Assembly (NCBI GenBank): GCA_902168115.1
Contig: CABHPB010000068.1
Span: 1 to 64,000, forward strand
From: an uncultured Methylopila sp.
GTDB lineage: Bacteria; Pseudomonadota; Alphaproteobacteria; Rhizobiales; Methylopilaceae
Direction: 5' to 3'
DNA: 64,000 nt
The position numbers and the translations under genes are program-made. The notes under the pieces are model-generated. The model searched no databases and was not told where the DNA came from. It was given only the letters and a program-made list of their open reading frames with translations. Numbering within the stretch: position 1 is the stretch's first letter; each line of letters opens with the position of its first letter. Shown here piece after piece: positions 51,114 to 56,517 of this stretch.

Positions 51114-51998
51114 ATGCATGGCGTCGCCAAGTTGAAATCCGCGGGAGCAGGCGATCCTCTCGATGGCCTCCCGCCGCACATCAAGCATGCGGTTCGCCAA
51201 ATGCGCGACAGGCGCGAGTTGGTCGTCGTCATGTCGTCCCGGCCACGGTTCGAACTCGGCCGCGTGGACATGCACTGCACGACGCTCGACCTGGCTGACC
51301 TCGATCGCTCGTACTATCTGCGCGCCGCGGCGAAGACGGTGCGCGCGCTGGCCAGTTTCATCGACGAAGGCGGCTTCGAGCGGGTCTGCTTCGTGGGGGG
51401 CAGCAAAGCCGGGTTCGGGGCCCTCATGCTGACCCGTGAGCTTGCTGACGCGTTGCCTCTGGTCCAGTTCGCCGCCATCGCGTTCAGTCCCCAAACGCGG
51501 CTTTGGCCCAGGAACGACAGCCTCGAGTTTCCGAGCTACGCCGACCTCCTCGCCGATGCGAAGCATGATCGACGTCTCGCCGCGGCTCTCGGCAAGTTCG
51601 GCGACCAACGTCGTCCGATCAAATCGAGCAACCTGCGGTGGCGCGTCTTCTACGGGGAGAAGAACGCAGGCGATACGGCCGAGGCTTTGGGCTTGGCGAC
51701 CGGCCACGTCATCCTCGAGCCGTTCCCGATGCGCTCCCATTCCACGCTCCTTCCCATGCTTTGCGCCGGGATGGAGGTCGAGCAGGTCCGACAGATGGTC
51801 AAGGCCCATTACGGCGCGAAGTCCGCCGACGCAGACATCGCCTTTAATTTGCCGTCCTCTGACCAAGAGGATCTCGTCGTCGAGATCCTCGCGACGCTGC
51901 CGCAACCGACGTTCAACGAACTTGTTCGCGACAGCCTTGACGCCTTGCCGGGGCAAAGCGTCTGGCGGCGGCTGATGTTGCGGTTCGGGCGCGGATAG
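51114..51998 (+). CDS. Alpha/beta-hydrolase-fold protein, unrecognised
   Basis: A 294-residue protein with no close family that I can name. A nucleophile-elbow-like motif VGGSKAGFGAL (about residues 102-112) follows a central strand (FERVCFVGG), as in alpha/beta hydrolases. The motif is SxAG where SxGG is common. A candidate histidine is in FPMRSHSTLLP (about 208-213). No signal peptide or membrane segment is evident. Similar proteins occur near polysaccharide genes in rhizobia as I recall, where they are annotated only as hypothetical. Its codons look somewhat less GC-rich than the flanking housekeeping genes. It sits immediately downstream of the 3' end of tRNA-Ser, a frequent insertion position. 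Confidence 0.7.
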   Translation: MHGVAKLKSAGAGDPLDGLPPHIKHAVRQMRDRRELVVVMSSRPRFELGRVDMHCTTLDLADLDRSYYLRAAAKTVRALASFIDEGGFERVCFVGGSKAGFGALMLTRELADALPLVQFAAIAFSPQTRLWPRNDSLEFPSYADLLADAKHDRRLAAALGKFGDQRRPIKSSNLRWRVFYGEKNAGDTAEALGLATGHVILEPFPMRSHSTLLPMLCAGMEVEQVRQMVKAHYGAKSADADIAFNLPSSDQEDLVVEILATLPQPTFNELVRDSLDALPGQSVWRRLMLRFGRG

Positions 51999-52017
51999 TC
52001 GCGCTTTCGCGATCGTG

Positions 52018-52107
52018 TGGCGGAAGGGGTGGGATTCGAACCCACGGTGGAGTCGCCCCCACGGCGGTTTTCAAGACCGCTGCCTTAAACCACTCGGCCA
52101 CCCTTCC
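52018..52107 (-). tRNA. tRNA-Ser (anticodon UGA)
   Basis: On the minus strand the acceptor stem GGAAGGG pairs with CCCTTCC, followed by discriminator G and an encoded CCA (52020-52018). The anticodon stem gcggt/accgc holds the loop cttgaaa, with anticodon TGA (plus-strand TCA at 52071-52073). A long variable arm typical of tRNA-Ser is present, and the T-arm contains GGTTCGAATCC. Length is 90 nt with CCA. It reads codons UCA and, by wobble, other UCN codons. Confidence 0.97.
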
Positions 52108-52219
52108 GGCGTGGCGATGTTTGCGCCATGGCGTCTCGCGCCGCAACTCGCTTCGGCGATCGGCGACCCTTCACGGGGCGCGTCCGGCGCATTCGCCATT
52201 CACGAAACGTAAAACACTG

Positions 52220-52247
52220 TTGCAAGGTCGCATTCCCGCCGTATTCT
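52220..52247 (+). promoter_or_regulatory. Candidate sigma-70 promoter for rlpA
   Basis: TTGCAA (52220-52225) and TATTCT (52242-52247) are separated by 16 bases, about 80 bp upstream of the rlpA start. This is a plausible but weak promoter. Confidence 0.35.
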
Positions 52248-52329
52248 GGACGCCAGTTCCGCACGCATGCGGCCGCCCCCAGGCCGTGGACGGGAGAGCC
52301 GCATGAACCGCATCGAAGGCGCCGCCTGA

Positions 52330-53496
52330 ATGTCGCGTTTTCGATCCGGCCGCGCTCCCGCGGAGTTTTGCAAGACGGGCCTGAAATCCGTTGGTCTGGT
52401 CGCGCTCTGCGCCGGCCTCGCCGCCTGTTCCGCGCATGAGCGCGCCGCCTCCGGCGGCCCGGCGGCGGGCGGCGAATCGGCGGAGGCCTCCGCGGCGCCC
52501 GCCCAGGCGGTCGGCGTGATGACCGTGCTCGCGTCCTCGAGCGTCCCGCTGCCGCCGATCGCGCCTCCGCTCGGGGCGAAGCCGATCGTGGTCGCATCGG
52601 CGCAGGCTGATGTCCCGGCGCAGCCCCGTCCCGCGACGGCGCCGCCGAAGATCGGCAAGTCCGGAGGCGGTTTGGCCTCTTGGTACGGCGACCGATTCCA
52701 TGGTCGCCGCACGGCGAACGGCGAGCGGTTCGACATGGGCGGCTTCTCCGCCGCGCACCGGAGCTTCCCGCTGCCGTCCTACGTTCGGGTGACGAACGTC
52801 AGCAACGGGCGCTCGATCGTCGTGCGGGTCAACGATCGCGGGCCGTACCACGGCGGCCGCGTCATCGACGTCTCCCGCCGCACCGCCGACGTGCTCGGTT
52901 TCCGGGGCCACGGCGTCGGCAACGTCAAGCTCGACTACATCGGCTCAGCTCCCGACAGCAGCGACGACCGGCGGCTCCTTGCCTCCTACCAGGAATTCGG
53001 ACATCCGGCGGCCGCGCCCGGCATGCAGGTCGCGGCGCTTTCGCCGGTGAGCGACGCGGACCTCGCCGCCGAGGCCGGGTCCGGCGGCGCCTACGCCATC
53101 GCGAGCCGCGCGGTCTCACGGACCGCGACCTATGTCGTCGCCTCCGCCGAAAACGCCGCCTCCACGGTGCGGTCGGCCGCCTCGGCGACGGCCCAGACGG
53201 CGAGGGCCGCGGTGCGGAAGATCATTCCGGGCGAGTCCGCGCCGGCCGCCTACGCCGCCCAACAGCCGACGCTCGCCTCGGTCCCGTCCGCGATCGCGAC
53301 GGGCCGTTCGGCCGAGCCGAAGCGGGTCGTGGCGCCGGGAGAGCCGGTGCTCGCGAGCGCCGCGCCGGCGCTCAGGCCGTCGGTCTCGTCCCAGGCCGAG
53401 ATCTCCTCGCGTATCTCATCGAGCTTCGATAGCTTCGGCGCGCCGAAGACATCCGTGTCGACCGGCGCGTCGGTGACGGCGGAAGCGACGCGCTAA
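52330..53496 (+). CDS. rlpA: RlpA-family septal ring lytic transglycosylase-like lipoprotein
   Basis: A 388-residue outer-membrane lipoprotein: signal and lipobox LCAGLAACSAHE put the lipidated cysteine near residue 36. A double-psi beta-barrel domain (about 110-205) contains LASWYGDRFHGRRTANGE and VRVNDRGPYHGGRVIDVS, with the catalytic-type residues conserved. The C-terminal ~170 residues are low-complexity and lack a visible SPOR domain, so glycan recruitment must differ from that of E. coli RlpA. In Pseudomonas RlpA cleaves naked (stem-less) glycan strands at the septum. A D,D-carboxypeptidase homologue gene follows in the same direction after 86 bp. Confidence 0.92.
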   Translation: MSRFRSGRAPAEFCKTGLKSVGLVALCAGLAACSAHERAASGGPAAGGESAEASAAPAQAVGVMTVLASSSVPLPPIAPPLGAKPIVVASAQADVPAQPRPATAPPKIGKSGGGLASWYGDRFHGRRTANGERFDMGGFSAAHRSFPLPSYVRVTNVSNGRSIVVRVNDRGPYHGGRVIDVSRRTADVLGFRGHGVGNVKLDYIGSAPDSSDDRRLLASYQEFGHPAAAPGMQVAALSPVSDADLAAEAGSGGAYAIASRAVSRTATYVVASAENAASTVRSAASATAQTARAAVRKIIPGESAPAAYAAQQPTLASVPSAIATGRSAEPKRVVAPGEPVLASAAPALRPSVSSQAEISSRISSSFDSFGAPKTSVSTGASVTAEATR

Positions 53497-53582
53497 CCCT
53501 CGCGGCCGAAGGCCGCCGGGCTCCATTGTCCGAGTCACAGTTTCGCCTTACCTTCCCCGTCGTCGGGTCGAAGGGCGTCGCC

Positions 53583-54806
53583 ATGTTTCTGAGTAGCCTT
53601 CCGCGCCGCGCGCGCGGCCTTTGCGCGGCCTCGGCGCTCGCCGTCGCAGCCTCGCTCGCGCCGGTCGTCGGCGCCTTCGCCGCCCCCAAGGACGCCAAGC
53701 CCCCGGCGGCTCCGACCAGCGCGCCCTTCGCCTATCTCTATGACGTCACGTCCGACGCCACGCTCTACGCGGCCAAGGCCGACATGCCGACGCCGCCGGC
53801 CAGCATGGCGACGCTCATGACGCTGGAGCTGGTCTTCAAGGCGCTGAAGGAGGGGCGGCTCTCCCGCGACCAGACCTTCCGCGTGACCGAGGACGCCTGG
53901 CGCCGCGGCGGCGCGCCGTCCCGCAACTCGACGATGTTCGCCAAGCTGAACTCAGAGGTCGCGGTCGCCGACCTGCTGCGCGGCGTGATCGTCCAGTCGG
54001 GCACCGACGCCGCGATCACGCTCGCGACCGGGCTCGCCGGGTCGGAGCAGTCCTTCGTCGGACTGATGAACCAGCGCGCCAAAGAGCTCGGCCTCGTCTA
54101 CTCGACCTTCCGCAACGCGACCGGCCAGCCCGACCCCGAGCAGAAGATGTCAGCGCGCGACGTCGCCAAGCTCGCCGCGCATCTCATCGACACATATCCC
54201 GAATACTACCGGATCTTCGCCGAGCCGGAGTTCACCTGGAGCAAGATCACCCAGCGCAACCGCAACCCGCTACTGGCTGACTACCAGGGCGCGGACGGGC
54301 TCAAGACGGGATACACCGAGGACTCGGGCTTCGGTCTCGTCGGTTCGGTCACGCGCGACAGCCGCCGGCTGATCATCGTGATCAACGGGGTCGAAACGGC
54401 GAAGCAGCGCGCCGAGGAGGCCCGCAAGCTGCTCGACTGGGGCTTCAACGCCTTCGAGCAGCGCCGCCTGTTCGAGGGCGACGACGCCGTGGCGGAAGCG
54501 CGCGTGTTCGGCGGCTCCGCGATGCATGTCGCGCTCGTCGCCCAGAAGCCGGTCGACCTGCTCGCGCCGAAGGGCGACGACGCCCGCGTGGTGGCGCGCG
54601 TCACCTATGACGGGCCGATCGCGGCCCCGGTCGCCAAGGGCCAGCGCATCGGGACGCTGAAGGTGTGGCGCGGCGCGATGCTCACGGTCGAGACCCCGGT
54701 CTATGCGGCGAACGACGTCCCGGTCGGTGACCTGACGCGGCGCGCGATCGACGGCGCGCTGGAGCTCGTCAGCGGCTTCGTGGGCCAGGTCGCCGAAAAG
54801 ATCTGA
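53583..54806 (+). CDS. dacC: D-alanyl-D-alanine carboxypeptidase homologue (PBP5/6 family) with substituted active-site motifs
   Basis: The fold is that of PBP5-type D,D-carboxypeptidases: signal peptide (about residues 1-33), peptidase S11 domain (about 42-290), PBP5 C-terminal domain and a terminal amphipathic helix (RRAIDGALELVSGFVGQVAEKI-like anchor). Close surroundings match active homologues (PASMATLMT, AKLNSEVAVADLLRGVIVQSG, DGLKTGYTEDSG). However, the SxxK lysine is threonine (S74-M-A-T77) and the SxN asparagine is threonine (S139-G-T141); only KTG (K241-T-G) is standard. Each change is one base from the expected codon. The protein may thus be inactive as an enzyme, or act as a binding protein. 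The ATG at 53583 begins the signal; a TTG at 53526 is an alternative. tmk overlaps its stop by 1 bp. Confidence 0.9.
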   Translation: MFLSSLPRRARGLCAASALAVAASLAPVVGAFAAPKDAKPPAAPTSAPFAYLYDVTSDATLYAAKADMPTPPASMATLMTLELVFKALKEGRLSRDQTFRVTEDAWRRGGAPSRNSTMFAKLNSEVAVADLLRGVIVQSGTDAAITLATGLAGSEQSFVGLMNQRAKELGLVYSTFRNATGQPDPEQKMSARDVAKLAAHLIDTYPEYYRIFAEPEFTWSKITQRNRNPLLADYQGADGLKTGYTEDSGFGLVGSVTRDSRRLIIVINGVETAKQRAEEARKLLDWGFNAFEQRRLFEGDDAVAEARVFGGSAMHVALVAQKPVDLLAPKGDDARVVARVTYDGPIAAPVAKGQRIGTLKVWRGAMLTVETPVYAANDVPVGDLTRRAIDGALELVSGFVGQVAEKI

Positions 54807-55462
54807 TGGCGGGACGTCTCGTCACCTTCGAGGGCGGGGAGGGCGTCGGCAAGTCGACGCAGATCCGTCGCCTCGCCGACCGCCTGAAGGAGCTCGGCCA
54901 GGATGTCGTCGTCACGCGCGAGCCGGGCGGCTCGCCCCGCGCCGAGCGGCTGCGCGAAACGCTTCTGTCGGGCGGCGCGAAGGCGTTCGGGACCTTCGCG
55001 GAGACCGCGCTGATCGCCTCGGCGCGCGCCGATCACGTCGACCGAGTCATCCGGCCGGCGATCCAGCGCGGCGCGATCGTTCTGTGCGACCGCTACGTCG
55101 ACTCCACCCGGGCCTATCAAGGGTCCCTCGGCGGGCTCGACCGCGCCATCATCCGCTCGCTGGAACGCGTCGCGACGACCGGCGCGTGGCCGGACCTCAC
55201 CGTCATTCTCGACCAGCCGGTGGAGCGTAGCCTCGAGCGCGTGGCGCGCCGCGCGCAGGGCGCGGCCGCAGACCGGTTCGAATCGGAAGGGCGCGACTTC
55301 CACGTCAGGCTGCGGGCCGCCTTCGTCGAGATCGCGCGCGACGAGCCGGAGCGCTGCGTGCTCGTCGACGCGGAAGGCCCCGAGCCGGTCGTGGCGGGCC
55401 GGGTCTGGGACGTCGTCTCCCGACGCCTCGGACTCGTCGACGCGAAGAGCCGGGCGGTATGA
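54806..55462 (+). CDS. tmk: Thymidylate kinase
   Basis: It phosphorylates dTMP to dTDP. The P-loop is FEGGEGVGKSTQI, the DR(Y/X) motif is CDRYVDSTRAYQG, and a LID-region arginine lies in ARRAQGAAADRFESEG. Length 218 residues is usual. The ATG at 54806 overlaps the carboxypeptidase-homologue stop by one base, and the holB start overlaps the tmk stop (ATGA at 55459), so the three genes are translationally coupled. The order dac-tmk-holB-metG-tatD is conserved across Rhizobiales. Confidence 0.97.
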   Translation: MAGRLVTFEGGEGVGKSTQIRRLADRLKELGQDVVVTREPGGSPRAERLRETLLSGGAKAFGTFAETALIASARADHVDRVIRPAIQRGAIVLCDRYVDSTRAYQGSLGGLDRAIIRSLERVATTGAWPDLTVILDQPVERSLERVARRAQGAAADRFESEGRDFHVRLRAAFVEIARDEPERCVLVDAEGPEPVVAGRVWDVVSRRLGLVDAKSRAV

Positions 55463-56517
55463 TCGAGCCCGACGGCCTGCCGGAAGCCGACCGGCGCGAC
55501 GGCTGCCCGCATCCGCGCGAGACCGCGCGCCTCGTCGGCCATGCCGAGGCCGAGCGCGCGCTGCTATCCGCCTTCCGCTCCGGACGCATGCACCACGCCT
55601 GGCTGGTCACCGGGCCGGAAGGCGTCGGAAAGGCGACGCTCGCCTACCGCATGGCGCGCTTCGCCTTCGCTCATCCCGATCCCGCGCTCGCCGGCGCCGC
55701 GACAAGCCTAGCGGTCGCCGAGGACAATCCCGCCTTCCGACGCGTCGCGCGGCTCGCCCATCCCGATCTTCTGCTCCTGAGGCGCGGCTGGAACGCGGAC
55801 CGCAAGACTCACTACGCCGAAATACGCGTGGACGACGTTCGCCGCGCGACCTCGTTCTTCGGCTCGACCACCGGGGAGGGCGGCTGGCGCGTCGCGATCG
55901 TGGACGCCGCGGACGACCTCAACGGCGCGGCGGCGAACGCGCTGCTGAAGTCGCTCGAGGAGCCGCCGGCGCGCACCATCTTCTTCCTTGTCGCCGCGAC
56001 GCCGCGCGCGCTCCCGGCGCCGGTGCGCTCGCGCTGCCGCGCGCTCGCCCTTCAGCCGCTCGCCGCCGCCGAGGTCGCCGAAATCCTTTCCGGCCTGCCG
56101 GAGATCGCCGACGCGCACGACGCCGAAGAGATCGCCAGCGCGGCCGAACTTGCGGACGGCAGCGTCGCGCGCGCGCTGTCGCTGCTCGGAAGCGACGGGG
56201 CGTCCCTGCGCCGCACGGTCTCGACGCTGCTCGACCGTCTGCCGGCCGTCGACGTCAAGGCGAGCCACGCGCTGGCGGAGGATCTCGCCCGCAAGGGCGC
56301 CGAGGAGCGTTTTTCCCTGTTCGTCGGGCTGGTTGGCGACTGGCTCCACGATCGGGTTAGGGCCGGCGCCTCGACGGGAGAGCCAGGCCTGCAGCGCTTC
56401 GCCGAAGCGTGGGAGAAAGCCACGCGCGCCGCGCGGGAGGTCGAGACCTTCAACCTCGACCGCCGGCCCTATGTGCTCGAGACGCTGACCGACCTCTCCG
56501 GCCTCGCCCGCGGCTGA
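55459..56517 (+). CDS. holB: DNA polymerase III delta' subunit
   Basis: Delta' is part of the clamp-loader complex. AAA+ features are seen: a P-loop-like [15 protein letters not shown] (delta' may or may not bind ATP), and the stretch [15 protein letters not shown] with SRC in RSRCRALAL, the delta' equivalent of the SRC motif that contacts neighbouring ATP sites. Length 352 is normal. It starts within the tmk stop (ATGA overlap). metG follows after 112 bp. The zinc-finger cysteines of E. coli HolB are not visible here. Confidence 0.93.

Follow-up and report, generated by a model that had tools for sequence, protein, structure and literature searches.

A PBP5-type protein encoded between rlpA and tmk lacks catalytic residues throughout the Methylopila group and, in complementary fashion, in many other Hyphomicrobiales

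Low-molecular-mass penicillin-binding proteins of the PBP5 type (MEROPS family S11; DacA, DacC and DacD of E. coli) carry the active-site motifs SxxK, SxN and KTG. In the available part of one account, the SxxK lysine serves as the general base with the KTG lysine as an aid, and the S11 triad is given as two serines and one lysine (PMC9953012). A 2008 survey that counted inactive serine protease homologues covers family S12 and not S11 in its available part (PMC2605481), and no report of inactive S11 homologues at the rlpA-tmk locus was found among the open-access papers listed. A parallel in the manner of working is offered by the degenerate LytM factors EnvC and NlpD, whose cell-wall hydrolase fold is inactivated and which, in the accessible text, have been retained to regulate other hydrolases; degenerate LytM factors of A. 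tumefaciens localise to mid-cell (PMC8416486). Their fold is that of M23 metallopeptidases, however, and the likeness to the protein described here would be one of function only. For A. tumefaciens, the part of the paper at hand reports that insertions in the DD-carboxypeptidase gene Atu1499 and in the RlpA gene Atu1500 are synthetically detrimental when the yej muropeptide transporter has been lost (PMC9790009), and an excerpt of another that a gene named dac is synthetic with loss of LD-transpeptidases (PMC11527210). Four serine-type D,D-carboxypeptidase genes are annotated in S. meliloti, according to the available text of a further paper (PMC7327166). The adjacent locus numbers, on which the comparison is based, suggest that Atu1499/Atu1500 is the same gene pair as the one studied here; Tn insertions in rlpA could be polar on Atu1499.

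The window, a 64,000-nucleotide stretch of DNA from an uncultured Methylopila sp. (contig CABHPB010000068.1), encodes an S11 protein in an intact frame of 407 amino acids (Table 1). Homology with PBP5-type proteins extends over its whole length: the S11 fold was recognised at 207 bits (PF00768, cut-off 27.6) and the PBP5 C-terminal domain at 69 bits (PF07943, cut-off 21.2), and the best-scoring solved relatives were D,D-carboxypeptidases/PBP5, such as 4k91, 3a3j and 3it9. The DacA/DacC/DacD-type equivalog models gave 208-235 bits, far under their curated cut-offs of 610-765. Unlike PBP5-type enzymes, the window protein has neither the SxxK lysine nor the SxN asparagine. The preliminary description had noted threonine at both positions next to an intact KTG, and the translation bears this out: SxxK is replaced by S74-M-A-T77 (in PASMATLMT) and SxN by S139-G-T141 (in VQSGTDAA), and the third motif is K241-T-G (in GLKTG). 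Both threonine codons are indeed one base away from the usual ones (ACG for AAG, ACC for AAC). Translational coupling with tmk, also proposed there, is plausible from the overlap of the S11 stop and the tmk start in TGATG at 54804-54808. A promoter and terminator scan of 51900-55600 returned no promoter and no terminator. An amphipathic C-terminal membrane anchor is known from PBP5-type proteins, and a candidate stretch follows the PBP5_C domain of the window protein. In the upstream rlpA homologue, only the DPBB domain was recognised by Pfam, followed by a long low-complexity tail seen by eye; SPOR, the usual septal targeting domain, was not found in it by Pfam.

Table 1. Positions in the window of the S11 gene, its domains and key residues, and the adjoining genes.
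Feature	Position	Strand	Basis
S11/PBP5-type protein, 407 aa, subject gene	53583..54806	+	PF00768 E 3.6e-61; PF07943 E 3.6e-19
Peptidase_S11 catalytic-fold domain, residues 45-270	53715..54392	+	Pfam
PBP5_C domain, residues 291-380	54453..54722	+	Pfam
Putative signal-peptide-like N-terminal stretch, about residues 1-34	53583..53684	+	by eye
Candidate amphipathic membrane anchor, C-terminal stretch	54723..54803	+	by eye
Ser74, SxxK nucleophile position, kept in 13/13 of genus	53802..53804	+	
Thr77 (ACG) in place of SxxK Lys; Thr in 13/13 of genus	53811..53813	+	
Ser116, conserved loop serine, kept in 13/13 of genus	53928..53930	+	
Ser139 of SxN, kept in 13/13 of genus	53997..53999	+	
Thr141 (ACC) in place of SxN Asn; genus T 3, N 2, G 7, A 1	54003..54005	+	
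Thr149 in place of Glu; T/V/A in 13/13 of genus	54027..54029	+	
KTG motif K241-T242-G243, kept in 13/13 of genus	54303..54311	+	
rlpA homologue, directly upstream of S11 gene	52330..53496	+	DPBB lytic transglycosylase domain (Pfam)
tmk, start overlaps S11 gene stop	54806..55462	+	named by synteny with S. meliloti locus
holB (DNA polymerase III delta' type), synteny marker	55459..56517	+	named by synteny with S. meliloti locus

The substitutions were followed through the genus Methylopila/Hansschlegelia/Chenggangzhangella, sampled by 13 genomes with one match each to the window protein at E below 1e-60. Threonine replaced the SxxK lysine in all 13, two of which are single-contig assemblies; outside the genus, position 77 was lysine in 266 of 269 genomes read. 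The SxN asparagine was missing in 11/13. A third conserved position, absent from the preliminary description, was gone as well: Glu149, present in 111/112 intact orthologues, was Thr, Val or Ala throughout the genus, unlike the other broken copies, 63/67 of which retained it. Ser74, Ser116, Ser139, Lys241, Thr242 and Gly243 were each kept in 13/13. Conservation of 95% or more was reached by 43 columns of the intact orthologues, a set that includes the seven motif positions used to define 'intact'; the genus departs from it at exactly three, 77, 141 and 149, and leaves 40 unchanged. Although 174 of 355 alignment columns vary within the genus, Thr77 does not. The only genus-specific fixed residues in columns 40-399 were Y53, A63 and T77; sequence comparison over these columns revealed no lysine or asparagine supplied from a neighbouring position, and no newly fixed Lys, Arg, His, Asp or Glu in place of the lost residues. 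A DNA pattern for the threonine-bearing motif, limited to AGY serine codons, had one S11 gene among its matches in 385 class genomes, that of the window itself; the sole other match was not an S11 gene. In the gene tree, the two species with Asn141 were placed inside the genus, beside three with Thr141. This nesting suggests that the general-base Lys77 was lost first, probably before the genus diversified, and Asn141 later, probably at least twice. The record named Chelatococcus sambhunathii S14 (L155, JADBEO010000018.1) grouped with Methylopila/Hansschlegelia and its protein was 94% identical to that of the window, so that its name may be wrong.

The gene is under purifying selection in the genus. 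Its dN/dS (Nei-Gojobori) was 0.071-0.316 over nine genus pairs, lower than that of rlpA in 9/9 and of tmk in 7/9, values that are rough since the pairs share species and four have dS of 0.60-0.85. Selection of this kind on an intact frame is what is looked for in a pseudoenzyme. The preliminary description had judged the gene not to be decayed, and the fixation of the losses across the genus, the purifying selection and the intact frame uphold that judgement. Decay, or a sequencing or assembly error, might be suspected from each window change being a single base from the usual codon; it is scarcely tenable against 13/13 genomes of different species agreeing at position 77, intact frames, dN/dS of 0.07-0.32 and 40 of 43 conserved columns kept, and was ruled out on the genus genomes, frames and dN/dS. 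A read error at codon 77, named earlier as a way in which the claim could fail, is excluded by the 13 genomes.

Recurrence of active-site loss across the order, which the preliminary description did not foresee, became evident when the locus was searched in Hyphomicrobiales. A match at E 1e-70 or better was obtained in 260 of 297 genomes, leaving 37 without. The first set comprised the best match in 192 genomes, one per species, from 44 families and 103 genera, with all motif positions present (the partial row G263 and the partial locus L087 were excluded); 112 were intact and 80 were broken in at least one of SxxK, SxN and KTG. Among 90 added genomes of family f24, 68 were intact and 22 broken. 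Altogether, the active site at the rlpA-[S11]-tmk-holB locus was broken in 102/282 genomes and 44/164 genera, a proportion that is not a prevalence, weak matches having been oversampled in the order and only strong matches taken in f24. No genus among the 164 contained both states; families f14, f16, f31, f35 and f42 of the first set did, and so did f24 with the added genomes. Orthology was assigned by gene order where flanks sufficed and otherwise by best match. Among broken genomes, tmk followed in all 59 that had a downstream flank of 600 bases or more, and rlpA preceded in 56 of the 60 that had 1200 or more upstream, as compared to 79/80 and 71/80, respectively, in intact genomes. These flanks rule out an old inactivated paralogue posing as the orthologue. 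The four broken genomes without an upstream rlpA (G066, G135, G163 and G209) all belong to family f50. Both S11 and PBP5_C domains were still recognised by Pfam in all six broken copies scanned.

The residues lost in the window genus and elsewhere are largely complementary. The genus lost K77, N141 and E149 while both serines and KTG stayed. The 67 other broken genomes of the first set kept K77 in 64, N141 in 66, E149 in 63 and S74 in 47, with S139 in 2 and K241 in 5. Over all 89 broken genomes outside the genus, the counts were 86 for K77, 88 for N141, 65 for S74, 11 for S139 and 5 for K241; S139 and/or K241 was lost in every one. The Fisher values computed for this contrast take no account of relatedness and are not to be taken as probabilities. 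The serine nucleophile itself was gone in 24 of the 102 broken genomes. Loss of K77 occurred in one other genus only, g15 of family f13, with leucine in 3/3 genomes (L075, L321 and L323), which also lacked Ser139 of SxN and Lys241 of KTG. Within the window's family, no residue lost in g2 and g3 is among those lost in g1, so that their losses are independent unless residues were regained. In an AU test with 30 broken and 40 intact rows, a single origin of the broken state was rejected (p-AU 3.4e-5), long branches being in play, but not the placement of the window family's five rows in one clade (p 0.476). As the gene trees are uncertain, with fast-evolving broken rows drawn together, the minimum counts of 9 and 6 changes are only approximate; the families with both states and the non-overlapping losses within family f1 are the better arguments for repeated loss. 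Six loci (L201-L203, L206, L366 and L406) had SLAK and SAN with GTG or ETG, the KTG lysine alone being lost, which may be the first inactivation step in that branch.

A canonical paralogue in the same genome had been proposed as a check, and two were found: the window genome has two further S11 genes with all motifs, SVTK/SAND/KTG and SLTK/SAND/KTG. Pfam detected PBP5_C in neither; one of the matches stops 40 bases before the contig end and may be truncated there. A search of the window genome for Peptidase_S13 found nothing. At least three S11 genes were present in every one of 18 genomes of the family and in 40/40 further genomes of the order. The motifs were intact in 24/24 unlinked S11 paralogues read from 18 genomes, a control biased towards intact copies since these were the best-scoring loci; 18 of the 24 came from 12 genomes of the window's family, of about 37 there, and L087, a partial orthologue, was not counted. 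Where flanks were available in that family, neither rlpA nor tmk adjoined the S11 paralogues. Four or more S11 genes over the cut-off were present in 7/18 broken as against 2/22 intact genomes, in a by-eye count that ignores relatedness and was therefore not taken as a sign of compensation by extra paralogues.

The gene is also missing from some genomes. Eight genomes of the order without a strong match were sampled, from families f18, f45, f4 and f33. In seven of them (L346-L352; f18, f45 and f4), tmk was found with an rlpA-like frame directly upstream on the same strand (the rlpA match of L350 being weak, E 2e-9) and with holB following tmk, and no S11 match was obtained in the stretch examined. 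Thus, the gene is dispensable somewhere, and the locus shows three states: intact, inactivated and absent. Outside the order, three Rhodobacterales, one Sphingomonas and one Azospirillum record were intact, the Azospirillum copy lying in other surroundings and hence not at the same locus; L207 and L209, labelled Caulobacterales and Robiginitomaculum, were intact too. These records support an intact ancestor.

We consider it probable, though well short of certain, that the window gene encodes a pseudoenzyme maintained by selection and probably anchored in the membrane, which binds peptidoglycan and acts together with RlpA. The preliminary description had proposed a pseudoenzyme of the penicillin-binding fold, and this is well supported by the genus-wide fixation, the purifying selection, the canonical paralogues in the same genome and the lack of a new fixed lysine nearby. 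The protein most likely retains its fold, is exported and is tethered to the inner membrane through its C-terminus. The retention of Ser74, Ser139 and the KTG strand makes it probable that the groove still accommodates the ends of stem peptides, whether D-Ala-D-Ala or its trimmed product, and is not efficiently acylated. The protein would then be a non-covalent peptidoglycan-binding factor, partner of the lytic transglycosylase RlpA encoded upstream, with trimming left to the two canonical S11 paralogues; its orthologues in many other Hyphomicrobiales, in which the losses fell on the opposite half of the active site, presumably share the non-catalytic role alone. Reasoning from sequence, we hold the inactivity with moderate confidence and the partnership with RlpA with less. 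The neighbourhood of rlpA is no proof of interaction, and the four broken genomes of f50 have no rlpA upstream. A septal role beside RlpA, suggested in the preliminary description, is likewise unproven, drawing on gene order and on the Agrobacterium genetic data for what is presumed to be the same pair. Against the pseudoenzyme itself, the strict retention of Ser74, Ser139 and KTG exceeds the needs of a pure scaffold.

Two rival readings keep the protein catalytic. In a rewired enzyme, the altered mechanism that the preliminary description also raised, Ser74, Ser139 and Lys241 would form a Ser-Ser-Lys arrangement, like that of amidase-signature enzymes, in place of the SxxK base, with slow or altered hydrolysis and perhaps another substrate. 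Ser74, Ser139, Lys241, Thr242 and Gly243 are indeed invariant in the genus despite variation at Asn141 and Glu149, and Thr77 is fixed in 13/13 and not drifting where 174 of 355 columns vary; the S11 triad of two serines and a lysine, as described in the accessible part of PMC9953012, would also fit. However, none of the residues newly fixed in the genus is acidic or basic. Moreover, Asn141 of SxN, expected to position the substrate, is lost in 11 of 13 genomes, and no S11 enzyme is known to us to be active when the SxxK lysine is missing, so that we give such rewiring little chance. A mixed outcome, with the Methylopila/Hansschlegelia lineage still catalytic through Thr77 along with Ser74, Ser139 and Lys241 and with true pseudoenzymes in the parallel lineages, appears quite doubtful to the same degree; if catalysis without the SxxK lysine did occur, one locus would provide a natural set of both outcomes. 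It is unlikely, too, that a residual canonical enzyme persists, in which water or some other group would replace the base, acylation would be weak but of the usual kind, and slow turnover would suffice. The genus does retain the nucleophile and KTG, but the same protein has lost two to three conserved positions, of which two belong to motifs, and other lineages lose even the nucleophile at the same locus. A non-catalytic role unrelated to peptidoglycan binding, for example as a structural partner in a membrane complex or through an effect of co-expression with the tmk operon, is similarly improbable. It would agree with the conserved gene order with tmk and holB, and the loss of groove residues S139 and/or K241 in 89/89 other broken genomes suggests that ligand binding is not required there; in the window genus, however, the groove residues are invariant, and the PBP5_C domain and export-like N-terminus suggest a role in the envelope.

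Along the locus in Sinorhizobium meliloti Ak57, rlpA is followed by a gene annotated as D-alanyl-D-alanine carboxypeptidase (UIJ96504.1) and then by tmk, the gene for DNA polymerase III delta' and metG. This copy shares with that of the window both the rlpA-S11-tmk-holB order and a broken active site, but breaks the complementary half, with SLAK kept, SxN replaced by LAN and KTG by ATG. Two other Sinorhizobium records and one Shinella record were also broken, as were the Aurantimonas and Aureimonas records. The copy of a model symbiont is labelled a D-alanyl-D-alanine carboxypeptidase despite its broken active site, and Agrobacterium genetic screens have been interpreted with a carboxypeptidase label on a gene that looks to be the same. 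Should many such proteins be inactive, the phenotypes would report a non-catalytic function. Repeated complementary loss, along with families in which the gene is intact, inactivated or absent, makes non-trimming roles of PBP5 homologues directly testable by comparison, and a regulator of this type would mean that cell-wall regulators in the group have come from a second fold besides that of the degenerate LytM factors. The 3.7-Mb S. meliloti record L443 (CP090106.1) bears the title plasmid pSymB, but with lexA, tmk, metG and the gene for DNA polymerase III delta' on it, it appears to be the chromosome.
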